Assembly: GCF_902506555.1 (NCBI RefSeq)
Contig: NZ_LR732707.1
Coordinates: 582,001-646,000, forward strand
Source: Sphingorhabdus sp. 109
Lineage (GTDB): Bacteria; Pseudomonadota; Alphaproteobacteria; Sphingomonadales; Sphingomonadaceae
Length of the DNA stretch: 64,000 nucleotides
Reading direction: 5' to 3'
The notes below the pieces were generated by a model that saw only the letters and a list, made by a program, of their open reading frames with translations, was not told the origin of the DNA and searched no databases. Made by a program: the position numbers and the translations under genes. Position 1 is the first letter of the stretch; every line of letters starts with the position of its first letter. Below are positions 43,625 through 50,288 of the stretch, piece by piece.

Positions 43625-45838
43625 ATGCGGGATGGATTGAGCCCGAATGGCACCACAGGCACCGGTTCCGGTTCGACTGGCACCGCCCTTAGCACGCTGT
43701 TTCACCCGCGACAATTGTCTGATTTCTGGCGCGATATACAACTCTCCAAATTGATTGAAAGGCAGCTGGAAAAGGAGCGGGACCAACTGCCTCTATGGGT
43801 GCCGGTGGCGCTTGGTTTCGGCATCGCCTGCTGGTTCAATCTGGCCACTGGCGCGCGGTGGCTGGCCTTTATCAGCCTGTGCGGCGGAATTGTGCTGTTC
43901 GCGGTCACGAGCGGCGGCACGCGGCTCGGCAAGGTCCTGTTCTGGTTCGCGCTGTTGGCCGGAATCGGCTGCGCGCTAATCTGGCTGCGTTCTTGGAGCG
44001 TTGCCGCGCCAGTGCTGGAGCGACCGATCGTCACCACGTTCAATGCGGAAATCGAACGAGTCGAACCGGTGTTGGCGCGTGATATGGTCCGGCTGACATT
44101 GAGTACCGGTGACAATTCCGGGTTGCCGCCGCGCGTCCGGGTGAACGTGCCACTGGATCGCACCAGCCCCGGTTTGCAGGATGGCGCCCTGATCCAGCTG
44201 CGCGCGCGGTTGATGCCACCGGCGATGCCGGCGCTGCCAGGCGCTTATGACTTTTCCGAGCGCGCCTGGTTTCAGGGTCTCGGCGCGACCGGACAGGCGC
44301 TGGGAGAGATACGGATATTGCGCGCTGCGGACCCGGTTTTCGCGCTGTCCCGATACCGGCAGATGCTTTCGGCGCATGTCCAGTCGCAGATGGCCGGTGC
44401 AGCCGGTGCGATTGGAGCGACCCTGGCCACCGGAGATCGCGGCGCGATTGATGAAGAAGATGCCGAAGCGATGCGGCGCAGCGGGCTGGCGCATCTGCTA
44501 TCGATCAGCGGGCTGCACGTCACCGCAGTGGTCGGGGCGGTCTATCTGCTGATATTGAAGACGCTTGCCCTGTCGCCTGCGCTGGCGCTGCGCTTCCGCC
44601 TGCCGATTGTGGCGGCCGCCGGCGCGGCGCTGGCGGCGGTTGCCTATACGCTGATGACCGGGGCGCAGGTGCCGACGATCCGGGCCTGCGTGGCCGCCCT
44701 GCTGGTGCTGGTGGCGCTGATGATGGGGCGCAGCGCGATCACTCTGCGGATGGTCGCGGCGGGGGCGCTGTTCGTTCTGATTTTCTGGCCCGAATCGCTG
44801 GTCGGTCCCAGTTTTCAGCTGAGTTTTGCAGCGGTGACCGCGATCATCGCGTTGCACGAGCATCCGCGGATCAAGGCGCTGCTGATGCTGCGCGAGGAAA
44901 GCCTGATGCGGCGCGCCGGACGGTTCGTCTTTGCTCTGTTCCTCACCGGACTGGTGGTGGAAATCGCGCTGATGCCGATCGCGCTTTACCATTTCCACAA
45001 GGCCGGCCTCTATGGCGCGCTCGCCAATATCATCGCCATCCCGTTGACGACCTTTTTGATCATGCCCCTGGAGGCGCTGGCCCTGGTGCTCGACGGCTTC
45101 GGTCTCGGCGCGCCCGTCTGGTGGCTATGCGAACAGGCCCTCAGCAGCCTGATCGCGCTGGCCCATTTTGTTTCCAGCCGGCCCGGCGCGGTGACCATGT
45201 TGCCAACCATGCCGGTGATCGCCTTCGGTCTGGTGCTGCTTGGCGGTCTGTGGCTTTGCCTGTGGCGGGAGCCCTGGCGCTACTGGGGGCTGGGCCCGAT
45301 GCTGGTCGGCGGGCTGGTCATCGCCACCACCCGCGCGCCCGATCTCTATATCACCGGCGACGGGCGCCATGTCGCCATCCGAAACGAGCAGGGCGAGCTG
45401 GCGATGCTGCGCAACCGTAGCGGCGACTTTATCCGAGACATGGTCCGCGAAAATGCCGGGGTAGAGGGGGAGCCGCAGGCGCTGGAAGACTGGCCCAACG
45501 CCACGTGCAATGGTGACAGCTGCCTGGCGACTGTATCGGCAGGCGGGCGCGACTGGCAGATATTGGCGACGCGCAGCGGTCACTATATCCCGGCGCTTGC
45601 GCTGTCGGCAGCTTGCCGCCGCGCCGATATCGTGGTCAGCGAAAGGCGGCTGCCGGACGGCTGTCAGCCGCGCTGGCTGAAAGCCGACCGCAACCTGCTA
45701 TCGCAAGTCGGCGGCATGACGATTGATCTGGAAAACCGGCAAATATCCACGGCGCTCGGCTGGACCGGCAGGCATATCTGGACCCGCTATCGCGTTGCCG
45801 CGAGAGGCAATGCGGCCAGCGCCCGTCCCGATCAGTAG
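43625..45838 (+). CDS. comEC: ComEC/Rec2 family DNA uptake channel protein
   Basis: A 737-residue polytopic membrane protein of the ComEC family, the channel for DNA entry in competent bacteria. After a 60-residue cytoplasmic N-terminus come two helices and a DUF4131-like OB region ([20 protein letters not shown]). The competence core follows with [20 protein letters not shown] and [20 protein letters not shown], and [20 protein letters not shown]. The C-terminal ~150 residues ([40 protein letters not shown]) resemble the degenerate beta-lactamase-like domain. It diverges from gltX and its end overlaps lexA's end by 7 nt in convergence. Confidence 0.9.
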
Positions 45839-46524
45839 CGGCGCAGCAATCCGGCCATTTTGCCCTGGATACGCACTTCACCCGCACCATAGATTTGCGG
45901 TTCATAGGCGGCATTGGCGGGATCAAGCCGCACTTGTGCGCCCTGTTTGTGAAGATATTTCAGCGTCGCCTCTTCCTCGTGGATCAAAGCCACGACGATC
46001 TCGCCATCGCGCGCCACTTCGGTTTTCTGGATCAGCGCATAATCGCCATCGAGAATACCGGCCTCCATCATCGAATCGCCGGACACTTCCAGCGCATAAT
46101 GTTCGCCGGGGCCAAGCAGGGCGGCCGGCACGCTGAGCGCCGACTGGCCTTCCATCGCCTCGATCGGCGCGCCGGCGGCGATCCGGCCGTGCAAGGGAAT
46201 TTCCAGCACATCATTATTAGCTGCCGGAGCAGGATTGGAGACCACTTCGCGCACCGGCGTTTCCGGATGCAGCGCAACAACATTGGAGGGTTCCGCTTCG
46301 TGCAGGCCGCCCTCGGGCAGTTTTAGCACTTCGAGCGCCCGCGCCCGATTGGGCAGGCGGCGGATGAAGTGCCGCTCCTCCAGCGCGCTTATCAGCCGGT
46401 GAATGCCCGACTTGGACTTGAGCCCGAGCGCTTCCTTCATTTCCTCGAACGAGGGCGAAACGCCGCTATCCTTCAGCCTGTCATCGATGAAACAGAGGAG
46501 TTCATGTTGCTTTTGCGTGAGCAT
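45832..46524 (-). CDS. lexA: LexA repressor
   Basis: A 230-residue SOS repressor. The N-terminal winged helix has [20 protein letters not shown] and [20 protein letters not shown]. Self-cleavage occurs at Ala117-Gly118 in [12 protein letters not shown]. The Ser/Lys dyad is S151 in [11 protein letters not shown] and K189 in [11 protein letters not shown] chose ATG at 46524; the frame is open 12 codons further but runs into the SOS box. Autoregulation is expected from that box (46544-46558). An insertion sequence begins 69 nt upstream of the start. Confidence 0.96.
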
Positions 46525-46543
46525 GTCCAGTGTCCTGTTCTGG

Positions 46544-46558
46544 GAACGAATAAAGAAC
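46544..46558 (-). promoter_or_regulatory. LexA operator (SOS box)
   Basis: On the minus strand the sequence is GTTCTTTATTCGTTC, exactly the alphaproteobacterial SOS box GTTC-N7-GTTC. It lies 20 nt upstream of lexA and overlaps the candidate -10, as expected for autorepression. Confidence 0.9.
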
Positions 46559-46586
46559 AATTAAGAAACAAAACGGGGGAAGTCAA
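46558..46586 (-). promoter_or_regulatory. lexA promoter abutting the IS element
   Basis: On the minus strand TTGACT (46581-46586) is the -35, a 17-nt spacer follows, and TAATTG (46558-46563) is the -10. Two bases of the -35 belong to the 8-bp target duplication of the insertion sequence, so the insertion left the -35 intact. Confidence 0.65.
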
Positions 46587-46592
46587 GCGGGA
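46585..46592. repeat. Target site duplication, left copy
   Basis: AAGCGGGA lies directly outside the left inverted repeat and recurs exactly at 48757-48764 outside the right one. Eight bases is the duplication length known for the IS1595 family. Confidence 0.85.
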
Positions 46593-46634
46593 AGTGATTA
46601 TCCCCTTGCCATACGTAGTCAAATCTGCTACATA

Positions 46635-47531
46635 ATGGACATGAAACAGAAACCTCTCACGATCGCTCAATTCTTTAAGCAGTTTCCCGATGATGAAACC
46701 TGCTTGCAGCATATCTTTGATGTTCGTTTTGGACAGGGCTACGAATGCCCAAAGTGCGAAAAGGCTTCCAACTGGTATCGGATCAAAGCCGAGCGCGCTT
46801 ATTCCTGCCAGTGGTGCGGTCATCACTTGCACCCTACTGTGGGCACTCCGTTTGAAAAGAGCCGGACGCCATTGCAGCTTTGGTTCTATGCAATCTATCT
46901 GTTCACCACCACGCGCCACGGCGTTGCAGCCAAAGAATTGGAACGCCAGCTAGGCGTCACATACAAGACGGCATGGCGCATGGCTGGCCTGATCCGTGAA
47001 CATATGGCCGATGTGGACGGTGAAAATCCCCTTGGCGGCTTTATGAAAATCGTTGAAGTGGACGAAACCTATATCGGCGGCGTCAATCATGGCGGCGGTC
47101 CGGGCAACAAAGACGGCAAGACAGCGATCATGGGCATGATGCAGCGTAACGGCGAAGTCATGACGGTTGTCATCCCCAATCGCCGCAAATCGACGCTACA
47201 GGGCAATATCGTTGCCAATGTGCTGCCACATACCGAGATCCACACCGACGATTTTATGAGCTATGCTGGCCTTGACGGAACCGGCCACAAATATTGGCAC
47301 AAGACGGTCAATCACAGTGCTGGCCAATGGGTAACTCCTACCGGCACGACCACCAACGGCATTGAGGGTTTCTGGTCACAGTTGAAGCGCGGTATCTTTG
47401 GCACTCACATTCACGTTTCGCCGCAGCATCTTTGGAAATATGCCAAGGAAGCGGAATATCGCTTCAATCGTCGCCACCGTCCCGAGACGATGTTTTCGGA
47501 ACTGGTTTCGACTTACCAACCATTGACCTAA
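46635..47531 (+). CDS. IS1595 family transposase
   Basis: A 298-residue DDE-type transposase. The N-terminal zinc ribbon has CPKCEKASNW and CQWCGHHLHPTVGTPFEKSR. The middle has RQLGVTYKTAWRMAGLI, a helix-turn-helix-like part. The catalytic domain has VEVDETYIGGVNHGG for the first Asp, HTDDFMSYAGLDGTGH for the second, and TTNGIEGFWSQLKRGIFGTH for the third position, with the C-terminal HLWKYAKEAEYRFNRRH typical of the family. A second Met two codons in is an alternative start. The gene appears intact, so the element may still be mobile. Confidence 0.93.
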   Translation: MDMKQKPLTIAQFFKQFPDDETCLQHIFDVRFGQGYECPKCEKASNWYRIKAERAYSCQWCGHHLHPTVGTPFEKSRTPLQLWFYAIYLFTTTRHGVAAKELERQLGVTYKTAWRMAGLIREHMADVDGENPLGGFMKIVEVDETYIGGVNHGGGPGNKDGKTAIMGMMQRNGEVMTVVIPNRRKSTLQGNIVANVLPHTEIHTDDFMSYAGLDGTGHKYWHKTVNHSAGQWVTPTGTTTNGIEGFWSQLKRGIFGTHIHVSPQHLWKYAKEAEYRFNRRHRPETMFSELVSTYQPLT

Positions 47532-47634
47532 GCGTGGCCTCAATGGCGGCTTTATCGCCGTCATTGTCGGTCGCATGTTCTTTGATGAACTCTTTGAGTT
47601 TGCCCTTTTCTCGGGCTTCTTTAAGTGTGGTCAT
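47464..47634 (-). CDS. Small IS passenger ORF (56 residues)
   Basis: A minus-strand ORF from ATG at 47632-47634, starting MTTLKEAREKGKLKEFIKEH, then acidic ATDNDGDKAAIEATLRSMVG, and ending KPVPKTSSRDGGDD. It overlaps the transposase 3' end by 68 nt in antisense, and its start overlaps the end of the next passenger. I recall similar short ORFs next to IS1595 transposases in other alphaproteobacteria, but without a function. Charged, soluble, no domain known. Confidence 0.6.
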   Translation of the reverse strand: MTTLKEAREKGKLKEFIKEHATDNDGDKAAIEATLRSMVGKSKPVPKTSSRDGGDD

Positions 47635-47959
47635 GGTCACCTTGATTGTCAGTTTTTTGCCCTCTCTCTAAAACATTCAGAAGCCCATCGAGGGATTTTA
47701 CAGACCAAGGACGATAAGGCCTTGGTGACCCTGTATAGACCAAAGCGCCAACATACGCCAATATCGCGAACAAGAACAAACCAAAGAACCAGAGCGGTGA
47801 CATAAGAGAAGATACCTCTATAAAAACCCCTTGTGCCCACATTTTGACTTCGGTCCATACCGCCGCAAGGCCAGCGATAGTGAGTAATGCGGTGCAAAAC
47901 CCTCCAAAGACCGTGGGGCCTGCCCATAGTAGAAATTTGTGTGTTCGTGGATGGCGCAT
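47621..47959 (-). CDS. IS passenger membrane protein (112 residues)
   Basis: A two-helix membrane protein: KFLLWAGPTVFGGFCTALLT with continuation IAGLAAVW, a short loop, then LMSPLWFFGLFLFAILAYVG. The C-terminal ~40 residues are charged (DGLLNVLERGQKTDNQ) and cytoplasmic by the positive-inside rule. The stop overlaps the start of the 56-residue ORF, so the two are probably coupled. I do not recognise the family. Confidence 0.65.
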   Translation of the reverse strand: MRHPRTHKFLLWAGPTVFGGFCTALLTIAGLAAVWTEVKMWAQGVFIEVSSLMSPLWFFGLFLFAILAYVGALVYTGSPRPYRPWSVKSLDGLLNVLERGQKTDNQGDHDHT

Positions 47960-47999
47960 TTCGCAAACATAGCCAAAAGAAATAAATTGGCGAGTTTAT

Positions 48000-48674
48000 T
48001 CACACATCATCGCCAAATAAGAAGCGCGGCCGTTCATTTATTTTCTCCGCAAATTTAATCAATGATTGCCTGTCTGTTTCGGTTGTATCTGGTATCTCAA
48101 TAGCTTTTGAGTTCATGCCAAATGAAACCGCAGGCACCATCAATAACCACTGCCTCTTTTTATTGTCTAAGTCATCAAAAAGAGCGAGTTCGCTATTTAT
48201 GACGCCGAATTTAAGTTTCTGTAATATTGGCAGCGCCTTGTGATGCATTGCGTCGGGACTCATTGGTGGTGAGACCTCAGCCCAAAGGCTAGCCGCCTGG
48301 AACAGCTGTAGGCAGTTCACATCATCCCATTGATGGACATCAAATGCGATCTCATCAACTTGAAATTTCATCTTCTCGTCGAGCGCAATAGAGGCATTTT
48401 GATAAAGCTGATAAGGTGCCACAAAAAGTAGATTAATTGCAAAAACAAGCCCGAATCCCAATAGGGCGGCGTATAATACTGTTTTAGTGATGCTCAATTC
48501 ATCGTCGAATGCTCTGTAACCATCAGGACTGTCTGACGCGAAATACAGCACGCCCAGAATCAAAACCGCTGACAATCCCTTCCCAGCCAAATCTGCCCAA
48601 CTATGGGCGATCATAGTTCGCCACGCGTTGGCCCAAGACATTTTGAGAACGAATAGGATGTATTCTCTAACCAT
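48000..48674 (-). CDS. IS passenger membrane protein (224 residues)
   Basis: The protein opens with MVREYILFVLKMSWANAWRT, followed by two helices (LAGKGLSAVLILGVLYFAS and VLYAALLGFGLVFAINLLFV), and then a ~120-residue soluble part (ALDEKMKFQVDEIAFDVHQW to ERPRFLFGDDV). It lies 41 nt upstream of the 112-residue gene on the same strand and near the right IS end. The helix layout suggests an inner-membrane protein with a cytoplasmic domain. No function can be assigned. Confidence 0.7.
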   Translation of the reverse strand: MVREYILFVLKMSWANAWRTMIAHSWADLAGKGLSAVLILGVLYFASDSPDGYRAFDDELSITKTVLYAALLGFGLVFAINLLFVAPYQLYQNASIALDEKMKFQVDEIAFDVHQWDDVNCLQLFQAASLWAEVSPPMSPDAMHHKALPILQKLKFGVINSELALFDDLDNKKRQWLLMVPAVSFGMNSKAIEIPDTTETDRQSLIKFAEKINERPRFLFGDDV

Positions 48675-48756
48675 CCCATCTCTTTATCACAATCAATCAT
48701 GATTGCACTCCGAGATTGGCGCCCGCGTCTTTACGTATGCAAGGGGGATAATCACT

Positions 48757-48764
48757 AAGCGGGA
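48757..48764. repeat. Target site duplication, right copy
   Basis: AAGCGGGA matches the left copy at 46585-46592. The next eight bases, AGTGATTA, also match the IS tip, giving a 16-bp direct repeat in total. Confidence 0.85.
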
Positions 48765-48980
48765 AGTGATTAGGCCGTTGGTGGAGCGACAGGCAACACA
48801 GACGGAATTGATCCGCTGCCTTGATGGCGGCTGTTTGCATTTTCCGTCGAAAAGCGGTCAGTCGGCTAACGACCCAATTGCAGTCATTCAACCTGACGAT
48901 GGCCAACGGCAGAATAGGGCGCAAAAGCGGACACTAGCTTAGACTTGTCCGACACGCCTTAACTAGTTATGTGACCCACC

Positions 48981-49388
48981 ATGTTTCGATCCATTCTTGT
49001 TTTGAGTTTTATTGGAAGTCTGGTCGCTTGCAGCAATGGCGTACAGAATGCCGAGAAGTGTCCATTACTTTCGGCGGGTTGGAGCCAACCAAAAGATGGA
49101 GTCCCAACATTCGCATTGGTGAACATCGTTGCTTGGTCCGATTCCTCGATCACTTGGAACGGCGTACCGGTTAAAGAAAGCCAACTGACTGGCTTCTTTG
49201 CAGAAACAAGAAACATGGTTCCTGAACCTTTGACAGTATATGATCCAGTTGGCGCACCGAATTGCGATAGAGCAACCGAACTGCGAGATATCATCGACAA
49301 AGCAGTTGATTGCAAACGAGGCTGGATGTGTGGCTTAGGCGCGGAGGTTGATTGGAATAATGCAACCCCAGCTAAGGATGCACTCTGA
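48981..49388 (+). CDS. Putative lipoprotein
   Basis: A 135-residue protein with a lipoprotein signal (MFRSILVLSFIGSLVACSNG; lipobox L-V-A-C, Cys at residue 17). The mature part contains SITWNGVPVKESQLTGFFAE and AVDCKRGWMCGLGAEVDWNN, with further Cys in NCDRATELRDII. The layout of a WNGxPV motif followed by a polar helix recalls ExbD/TolR-like periplasmic domains, but this is weak. No close partner gene is nearby. The gene lies between two poorly conserved stretches. Confidence 0.6.
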   Translation: MFRSILVLSFIGSLVACSNGVQNAEKCPLLSAGWSQPKDGVPTFALVNIVAWSDSSITWNGVPVKESQLTGFFAETRNMVPEPLTVYDPVGAPNCDRATELRDIIDKAVDCKRGWMCGLGAEVDWNNATPAKDAL

Positions 49389-49648: not shown

Positions 49649-50095
49649 TCAACCGAACTGGCGGCCGTGCAAATAACGCAACAAATCTCGGGCGTGTGTG
49701 CCCCAATGGAAAAAGAGAAGCCGAAATGACCAATGAGCATCGTCCAAACTAACGTTATTTGCCAGCCAGACGACTTCGTTCATATCGAGCGTAATGTCGC
49801 CAAGATCATCGATTGCGTCACCCCCACCCAATTCCGCATTTGGTCCATCAGTTGGGTCCGCACACGGATAAAGACCGTAATCTGGAAATCGGGCGGCAAC
49901 TCTTTGAAACAAAGCAGGACCGCTATCGCGGGGTGCCTCAAAATCACCCTCTGAGGGCCCACCATTGGGAGTTATATGGTAAGCCGTGATGAGGCGATCG
50001 AGAGCCGCCGTTAGCTCAGCGTCTGTTGGAACGGGACCATCCCACGCAATAGACAGAAATTGGCGAGCTGCGTGAATGGCGGGCGATGTATCCAT
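49649..50095 (-). CDS. DUF5063 domain protein
   Basis: From the ATG at 50095 (frame open to 50179) the protein has 148 residues. The DUF5063-like segment is ARFPDYGLYPCADPTDGPNA, then AIDDLGDITLDMNEVVWLAN and WSFRLLFFHWGTHARDLLRY. The family is small, soluble and of unknown function. The start lacks an obvious Shine-Dalgarno. It is isolated in the accessory stretch upstream of moeA. Confidence 0.65.
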   Translation of the reverse strand: MDTSPAIHAARQFLSIAWDGPVPTDAELTAALDRLITAYHITPNGGPSEGDFEAPRDSGPALFQRVAARFPDYGLYPCADPTDGPNAELGGGDAIDDLGDITLDMNEVVWLANNVSLDDAHWSFRLLFFHWGTHARDLLRYLHGRQFG

Positions 50096-50288
50096 GACTT
50101 CAGAATGGCATATGGGTTGGTGGCGTTCAAGGTCCGTTTTCACAAAATGCCGCCTTGAAGGAGCCAGTCCGCTTCCCACTCCAATATTAGCCTTTCAGCG
50201 TGCTCCAGCAGGATGCTGATAGCGGACTGCCACAGATCAGGAGGCTTCATTTGCCGCTAACGAAATATCCTCTCGCGGCTGTTGGTCA

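Follow-up and report, generated by a model that had tools for sequence, protein, structure and literature searches.

The IS1595 family of insertion sequences comprises the ISPna2, ISH4, IS1016, IS1595, ISSod11, ISNwi and ISNha5 groups and, as the relevant passages of the source have it, an N-terminal zinc ribbon is found in all groups except IS1016 (PMC8101967). Members that carry passenger genes are referred to as transporter IS (tIS), for example ISNha5 (Siguier, Gagnevin and Chandler 2009, cited in PMC11891212), whose passenger is described in the citing passage as a transcription regulator. Like ISNha5, as far as the citing passages describe it, the element analysed here has a single transposase of the IS1595 type, inverted repeats at its termini, target duplications of 8 bp and what would be passengers, genes without a direct part in transposition. 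It is set apart from ISNha5, compared through those same passages, by a small antisense gene at a fixed place (here gene A) and by strong turnover of cargo between the closest relatives.

Two other systems show a likeness. Unit transposons of the Tn3 family hold a transposase and passenger genes between inverted repeats, as does the present element; here, however, no resolvase was found among the matched families, the right part is only 0.6–2.1 kb and the cargo region appears to be exchanged whole, up to a single fixed border. Integron gene cassettes combine a constant platform with interchangeable short genes, which is also the likeness to our element group. Unlike integrons, the group has no integrase among its matched families, it usually has one cargo unit aboard, and its cargo border is formed by a start codon and the transposon end. 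Relative to the transporter IS known from the citing passages, A as a core gene and the exchange of cargo in blocks may be new, and on their account we have filed the element as a variant of transporter IS. No title or abstract within our literature coverage, outside which most subscription papers lie, describes either A or the cargo turnover.

The whole element occupies 46593–48756 (2164 bp) of the window, that is, of the whole stretch of 64,000 nucleotides that was analysed. Its features are:

46585–46592, no strand: left 8-bp target duplication AAGCGGGA, present as a single copy in the empty-site genome L201
46593–46617, + strand: left terminal inverted repeat, containing a −35-like TTGCCA as in relatives
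46635–47531, + strand: IS1595-family transposase, 298 aa, with zinc ribbon and DDE domain, intact (ORF and domain search)
47464–47634, − strand: gene A of the conserved core, 56 aa, starting with ATG at 47634 and covering 68 nt of the transposase 3′ end in antisense
47621–47959, − strand: cargo gene B (112 aa), with two hydrophobic segments and without convincing relatives
48000–48674, − strand: cargo gene C (224 aa), hydrophobic in segments of its N-terminal half and without relatives in the genome, plasmid and viral sets searched
48732–48756, − strand: right terminal inverted repeat (comparison of the terminal repeats)
48757–48764, no strand: right 8-bp target duplication AAGCGGGA
48765–48780, + strand: end-like sequence outside the right duplication, 13 of 16 bases resembling the element's own end

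A preliminary description of the locus had read it as a complete IS1595-type element, and this was borne out. Its two inverted repeats, 25 nt each, are complementary at 22 positions (88%), the 8-bp duplication AAGCGGGA stands on both sides, the transposase is intact and three ORFs of 56, 112 and 224 residues run antisense to it. The transposase matched DDE_Tnp_IS1595 (PF12762, 4.2e-32) and Zn_ribbon_IS1595 (PF12760, 3.1e-10) in Pfam and NF033547 (1.8e-54) in NCBIfam, all over the cut-off; it therefore has the N-terminal zinc ribbon and, with its 8-bp target duplication and terminal inverted repeats, the window element belongs to the IS1595 family. B and C sit between its ends, and the passenger ORFs matched no transposition family in Pfam or NCBIfam, in line with the earlier proposal that they are not transposition genes. 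The window element is likely a transporter IS.

Only one copy of the element was found in the host genome by DNA search, and only one IS1595 transposase by domain search. In L201, a genome of the same genus, we found the empty site, with a single AAGCGGGA and 98% identity over 168 bp; there was no transposase match, and the insertion site lies upstream of a likely lexA, named by eye from its translation. The evidence for movement of the window copy is limited to this empty site. Movement of a whole unit together with its cargo is indicated for a relative by L145 and L151, two 2434-bp copies of the same sequence that sit at separate sites of one genome and are flanked by different duplications. 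An end-like sequence directly outside the duplication was present in three of 84 complete elements, the window copy included (re-paired mean 0.125, maximum 2). In some sister genomes that lack the element, the position equivalent to 48765–48780 resembles an intact terminus.

A transposase scan with one genome per species gave 76 loci, mostly from Sphingomonadales, with others from Rhodobacterales, Caulobacterales, Gamma- and Betaproteobacteria, Verrucomicrobia and further groups. Many of these records are metagenome bins and, because each species is represented by one genome, recent copies are undersampled. With further surveys added, and short first versions of loci skipped, 162 loci with a transposase match were examined for ends. 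Strict ends, defined as an inverted repeat of at least 14/22 and a duplication of at least 7/8, were found at 94 loci; after removal of 10 repeats (nine loci fetched twice and one second copy in one genome), 84 distinct complete elements remained. The 68 loci without strict ends were cut contigs, members of other IS1595 groups or loci with mismatched duplications. Of these, 20 with good ends and poor duplications were added for cargo clustering, giving 104 curated elements.

The 84 complete elements are 1564–3038 bp long, with matching ends and duplications of 7–8 bp that are 73.5% A+T. Together with the empty site in L201, these ends indicate that the inverted repeats of the window copy are not due to chance. 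In all 84 elements there is at least 641 bp of sequence to the right of the transposase match, and all but one (83 of 84) carry a cargo ORF that reaches 80 aa; L193, the one without, belongs to a sister clade. Our search would have permitted a bare insertion sequence without cargo, and none was seen among the 84 complete copies; this result covers the complete elements and not the 68 loci without strict ends.

An ORF corresponding to A (58 residues in the window copy if the upstream GTG is used) lies antisense across the transposase 3′ end at 66 of the 76 scan loci (E<1e-8). In six of the other 10 the transposase is shortened or at a contig end (L049, L058, L061, L065, L070 and L077), two have a weaker A match (L060 and L068) and two have none (L069 and L072). 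Of the 104 curated elements, 83 hold an ORF that falls into the A cluster. The overlap between the frame of A and the 3′ end of the transposase has a median length of 74 nt and a fixed phase. Codon positions were compared in the 67 elements whose A match reaches E<1e-8. In close pairs, divergence outside the overlap was 0.224, 0.175 and 0.486 at positions 1, 2 and 3, so that A is, on the evidence of its codons, a selected protein that evolves under purifying selection. In 63 elements the divergence of A tracked that of the transposase, with Spearman coefficients of 0.48 outside the overlap and 0.72 inside it. Having the same cargo did not make the A proteins of a pair more alike than expected from their transposases (residual −0.011, permutation p 0.75).

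A survey of 385 genomes of the class gave A at 19 places, which lie in 17 genomes, the window included. At 16 places a transposase lies antisense to it, at one (L115/L152) A is accompanied by a cargo-sized sequence and an end-like motif with no transposase seen, and two are partial matches of 28–30 positions inside larger frames. On these distributions A is part of the constant core of the element and travels with the transposase. As a control, 30 IS1595 transposase loci from a survey of the family gave an A match (E≤0.05) in eight cases; A thus marks the element group and not the whole IS family. Among the 84 complete elements A was not detected at E≤0.05 in 18; with ORFs that chaining had placed in the A cluster taken into account, the number falls to 13. 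A sister clade with TATATA ends has no detectable A and still keeps 1.1–2.1 kb to the right of the transposase, so obligatory cargo cannot be explained by A in that clade, and this argues against A as the only cause.

A had no family at the cut-offs used in Pfam, NCBIfam, PADLOC and PHROGs; its single Pfam hit, at 0.12, was under the curated cut-off. Sequence comparison with solved structures gave only partial matches, the best at 0.0017 over 31 residues. The predicted model has three short helices and a loose tail (pLDDT 79), and a search for fold relatives found none (best E 9.1). Being antisense to the transposase, A is easily overlooked. For a Sulfitobacter plasmid the PLSDB gene table lists the transposase and the cargo and omits A, which our A model finds at 2.8e-18; since that table is incomplete and the original record may list A, this is only a hint that annotation misses the gene.

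Between A and the right end there are usually one to three genes on the strand of A, and these differed greatly between elements. The closest relative of the window copy, L003, has a transposase 97% identical to that of the window and carries unrelated cargo; at the DNA level the two elements are 92% identical over element positions 1–1043, from the left end to the start of A, and then share only the last 26 bp. Among the 104 curated elements, 29 ORF clusters besides A span at least two elements, with many singletons. Pair counts were made with the 97 elements whose cargo ORF is 80 aa or longer. A common cargo family was found in 2 of 24 pairs with transposases at least 90% identical, 8 of 120 pairs at 80–90% and 22 of 267 at 70–80% (the pairs overlap and are not independent), and the nearest neighbour had the same cargo family for six of the 97 elements. 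As families were joined by single-sequence phmmer (E<1e-4), remote relatives will have been split, and these values are lower bounds on cargo sharing.

The borders of the replaced block were examined in 90 pairs, drawn from 54 elements, with transposases at least 75% identical and no common cargo. Similarity from the left ended at a median of −42 nt from the start of A and never extended more than 13 nt beyond its start codon. At the right end the block of similarity had a median of 28 bp (range 0–82, with 0 in five pairs).

To place the cargo families on a transposase tree we used 98 of the 104 curated elements; L066, L067, L071, L072, L073 and L149, with short or stop-bearing transposase matches, were dropped. 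This was a quick tree in which 30 of 95 inner branches are unsupported. The 23 cargo families on 62 labelled rows need 40 changes, compared with a least possible number of 22 and a mean of 49.9 for shuffled labels; none of 200 shuffles was as low as 40. The labels are therefore more clustered than shuffled ones and some inheritance exists, and the cargo history appears to be one of some inheritance and mostly turnover. Individual families recur across the tree, with seven changes for the eight rows of c2, 7/7 for c1, 5/5 for c3 and 4/4 for c5 (changes/rows). Two routes of exchange were considered and gained no support: tandem fusion, as no internal remnant ends were seen above background (although three of 84 elements have the end-like sequence outside the duplication noted above and two seem to hold stacked cargo units), and crossover dragging A along, as same-cargo pairs showed no extra similarity in A.

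We noted an asymmetry between the two ends. TTGACA was matched at five or six of its six positions in 55 of 84 left ends and 18 of 84 right ends, and at least 4/6 matches in both promoter hexamers were found at 43 left ends and eight right ends. This enrichment of a −35-like hexamer suggests that the transposase promoter probably lies at the left end; the cargo probably brings its own promoter. A stricter sigma-70 scan of 46400–48900 gave 0 sites (3.7 in shuffles). The spacing of A to the cargo was examined in 55 of the 84 elements, 54 of which have an upstream cargo ORF. In 36 of the 54, no more than 20 nt separate the start of A from the stop of the cargo gene before it, with a 4-nt overlap in seven, and in 10 A lies 108–387 nt away; a motif like a ribosome site precedes A in 28 of 55. 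In the window copy the end of B overlaps the start of A by 14 nt. This spacing suggests that A is translated at the end of whichever operon is aboard.

In the reading that we favour, with a probability of about 70%, the element is a transporter IS built of two modules, a constant core of transposase and A and a swappable antisense cargo operon. This reading draws on the architecture, the conservation and selection of A, the lack of cargo-free complete copies and the turnover of cargo with its borders, as they emerge from sequence comparison. The core would consist of the left inverted repeat, in which the transposase promoter probably lies, together with the transposase and the antisense A; the cargo module would run from about the start codon of A to the right inverted repeat, as a short operon read towards the transposase. 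A would be the last gene of whatever cargo operon is aboard. Between lineages the cargo module would be replaced as a block while the core and the right terminus stay. A may lack a promoter of its own and be translated by coupling to the preceding cargo gene, and the convergent transcription of the cargo operon, the A protein or both may restrain the transposase. Such coupling and restraint would make cargo obligatory but interchangeable. The stronger proposal, that this is a distinct transposon design in which the core needs a short operon with a promoter of its own and can swap it freely, A being made only when such an operon reads into it and convergent transcription or A checking transposition, is one we make tentatively and think rather doubtful.

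The nature of the cargo was examined by family searches. The L024 cargo matched PDC-S42 in PADLOC (8e-114), a 'LAPAL motif-containing putative phage structural protein' in NCBIfam (1.4e-77) and, as a family, phrog_3243 in PHROGs; the L011 cargo matched the same NCBIfam model at 6.5e-17, barely over the cut-off, and PDC-S42 at 4e-6. L018 carries an ImmA/IrrE-like peptidase (Peptidase_M78 2e-20; PADLOC capP 2e-25) with a membrane partner. A Cas2-like protein with a partner is found in L163, L185 and L186; that of L163 (PADLOC 8.5e-10, Pfam under the cut-off) we take to be VapD-like. The L017 cargo is DUF7946+DUF7947. DUF7946 had three matches over the cut-off in 240 genomes of the class, one (L213) inside the element L137, one (L212) adjoining a transposase with no A match, and one (L214), near a contig end, with neither transposase nor A on its stretch. 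The L024 family was also found in 35 plasmid records, and on four plasmid stretches carrying it the transposase of this group was not found; as judged from these stretches, some cargo families live outside the element. Overall, four of 16 distinct proteins matched in PADLOC. A, B and C were among those tested and none matched, so by this measure they would not belong to a known or candidate defence family. Most of the cargo families tested match no model, and a few match defence-like ones (PDC-S42, ImmA/IrrE, Cas2-like).

B and C of the window copy each have two hydrophobic segments by a crude hydropathy count, in agreement with the preliminary description of two membrane proteins. A length of 224 aa is reached in only one of 2000 Markov shuffles, so that C is longer than expected by chance; the length of B alone is not, as 389 of 2000 shuffles reach 112 aa. 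No relatives of C were found in 297 other genomes of the family, 249 other genomes of the class, 72,556 plasmids and viral contigs. For B, five matches (E 6e-4 to 8e-3, 29–41% identity over 53–94 residues) were obtained in 256 genomes of the order and are not counted as relatives. Neither protein had a match at the cut-offs used in NCBIfam, PADLOC and PHROGs, and Pfam hits lay only above 0.1. The structure predicted for C from one sequence (pLDDT 46.9) was not used. B and C are most likely a membrane-linked accessory or defence-like pair; as neither has convincing relatives, this reading of function is by analogy. In the cargo clustering both were singletons, present in none of the other 103 curated elements. 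The preliminary description had taken A, B and C to be a trio travelling as one cargo, and this has to be given up: A is a core gene, and L003, the closest element, has different genes in place of B and C. The linked, overlapping antisense arrangement to which it drew attention is kept by selection in the element group as a whole. Its phrase 'selected cargo rather than debris' is supported for the group, and the trio as a unit is refuted by the description's own test, its absence from other copies.

These data can be set against several other explanations. That the window holds an ordinary IS1595 copy enclosing chromosomal debris, with meaningless antisense ORFs, would fit with B and C having no convincing relatives in any set searched and with B being no longer than chance. 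However, A is under selection and conserved, and in 62 of 83 A-bearing elements the longest ORF between A and the right end runs antisense to the transposase. Some cargo families turn up in more than one transposase lineage, cargo is tightly spaced to A and only one of 2000 shuffles has an ORF as long as C; we consider debris very improbable. Hardly more probable is that A is an antitoxin or immunity partner of the cargo and not part of the transposition core. The position of A, last in the cargo operon and close by, would suit such a role, as would L152, which keeps A, cargo-sized sequence and an end-like motif with no transposase seen, but the same A family is found with many unrelated cargos and shows no extra similarity between same-cargo pairs.

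The other two explanations concern what the cargo does. Cargo operons, including B and C, might be small phage-defence modules (abortive infection or exclusion) for which the element is a shuttle, a possibility that we take seriously and place below even odds. It is suggested by the PDC-S42 matches of L024 and L011, by the ImmA/IrrE-like and Cas2-like proteins, by the occurrence of the L024 family on plasmids with its match to phrog_3243, and by the cargo ORFs with hydrophobic segments in 57 of 83 A-bearing elements, a crude count without a control. Against this, PADLOC matched only four of the 16 proteins, neither B nor C has a match in any of the four libraries at the cut-offs applied, and PDC-S42 is itself only a candidate, its family bearing the NCBIfam name 'putative phage structural protein'. 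A toxin-antitoxin or addiction module stabilizing the element seems unlikely. Two-gene cargo operons are common, and the Cas2-like protein with its partner (L163, L185 and L186) and the ImmA/IrrE-like protein with its membrane partner (L018) would be in keeping with addiction; yet many elements carry a single cargo gene of about 300 aa, B and C match no family, and a transposon would presumably profit less from addiction than a plasmid does.

If the two-module reading is right, it would explain why no cargo-free member of this group of small transposons turned up here, and it would give a rule for finding short unknown operons, namely to look between A and the right end. It would also offer a simple system for studying how transposons swap cargo while keeping their ends, and it points to a conserved small gene, A, that has no match in four family libraries. 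The group would be a natural shuttle for short, mostly unknown and possibly protective gene sets. Should the distinct design also hold, the group would act as a sampling device, spreading many small, mostly undescribed and partly defence-like operons among Alphaproteobacteria and on to other phyla.

A profile comparison of cargo covered 3375 of the 3655 pairs of 86 clusters. Common ancestry of the cargos of about 300 aa received a weak hint only (46% for clusters c1 and c13), although c1 and c13 do fall into one NCBIfam family. We did not accept as relatives an ORF of L131 for C (40% probability over 33 columns) or other cargo for B (21% over 51 columns). Two elements, L055 and L021, seem to carry two stacked cargo units.

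In the element-free sister genomes L206, L209 and L210, a terminus-like sequence directly follows the single AAGCGGGA; in L209, for example, the sequence that resembles the element's own terminus is AGTGATTATCCCCTTGCCA. A decayed version directly adjoins the window copy of the element (window 48765–48780). An end-like neighbour of this kind is present in 3 of the 84 distinct complete elements with matching ends and target duplications. Two readings are offered: these 8 bp were already the target of an earlier insertion, or the element is attracted to its own ends.

A likely lexA, identified by eye, has its start codon at 46524, and the insertion is located 68 bp upstream of this codon (window 45832–46592). 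The window also has a GAAC-N7-GAAC motif at 46544–46558, which we take to resemble the alphaproteobacterial SOS box, and the element begins 34 bp beyond it. The insertion may change lexA regulation. Two further ORFs were found beside the element, for neither of which was a family found in Pfam:

Window 48981–49388: lipoprotein-like ORF, 135 aa (by eye).
Window 49649–50179: ORF, 176 aa.

In two other elements, the cargo looks like a stack of two units: in L055 (element 1010–2829) the ORF cluster c22 with a Peptidase_M78 (ImmA/IrrE-like)/membrane pair, and in L021 (element 1022–2730) a membrane/zinc-ribbon pair with DUF7946. Each of these units was also found elsewhere, alone or in similar form. 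For the cargo gene of L024 (element 1033–1947), the database names of a single protein family disagree: PADLOC gives PDC-S42, a defence candidate, and NCBIfam gives NF053583, ‘putative phage structural protein’.

An IS1595 sister clade has TATATA-type ends (L081, L082, L083, L189, L190, L192, L193, L195 and L199). Its elements are 2.0–3.0 kb long, with 1.1–2.1 kb to the right of the transposase. The small core gene A, antisense to the transposase 3′ end, was undetectable in these nine loci, and L193 has no cargo ORF of at least 80 aa. L152 4516–5310, where no transposase was seen, is a decayed element, with an intact A, cargo-sized sequence and an end-like motif.

In the family-level genome survey, the IS1595 transposase domain was matched 25 times in the genome G017; these matches are mostly of equal score and equal frame length, and look as if they were copies of a single element.
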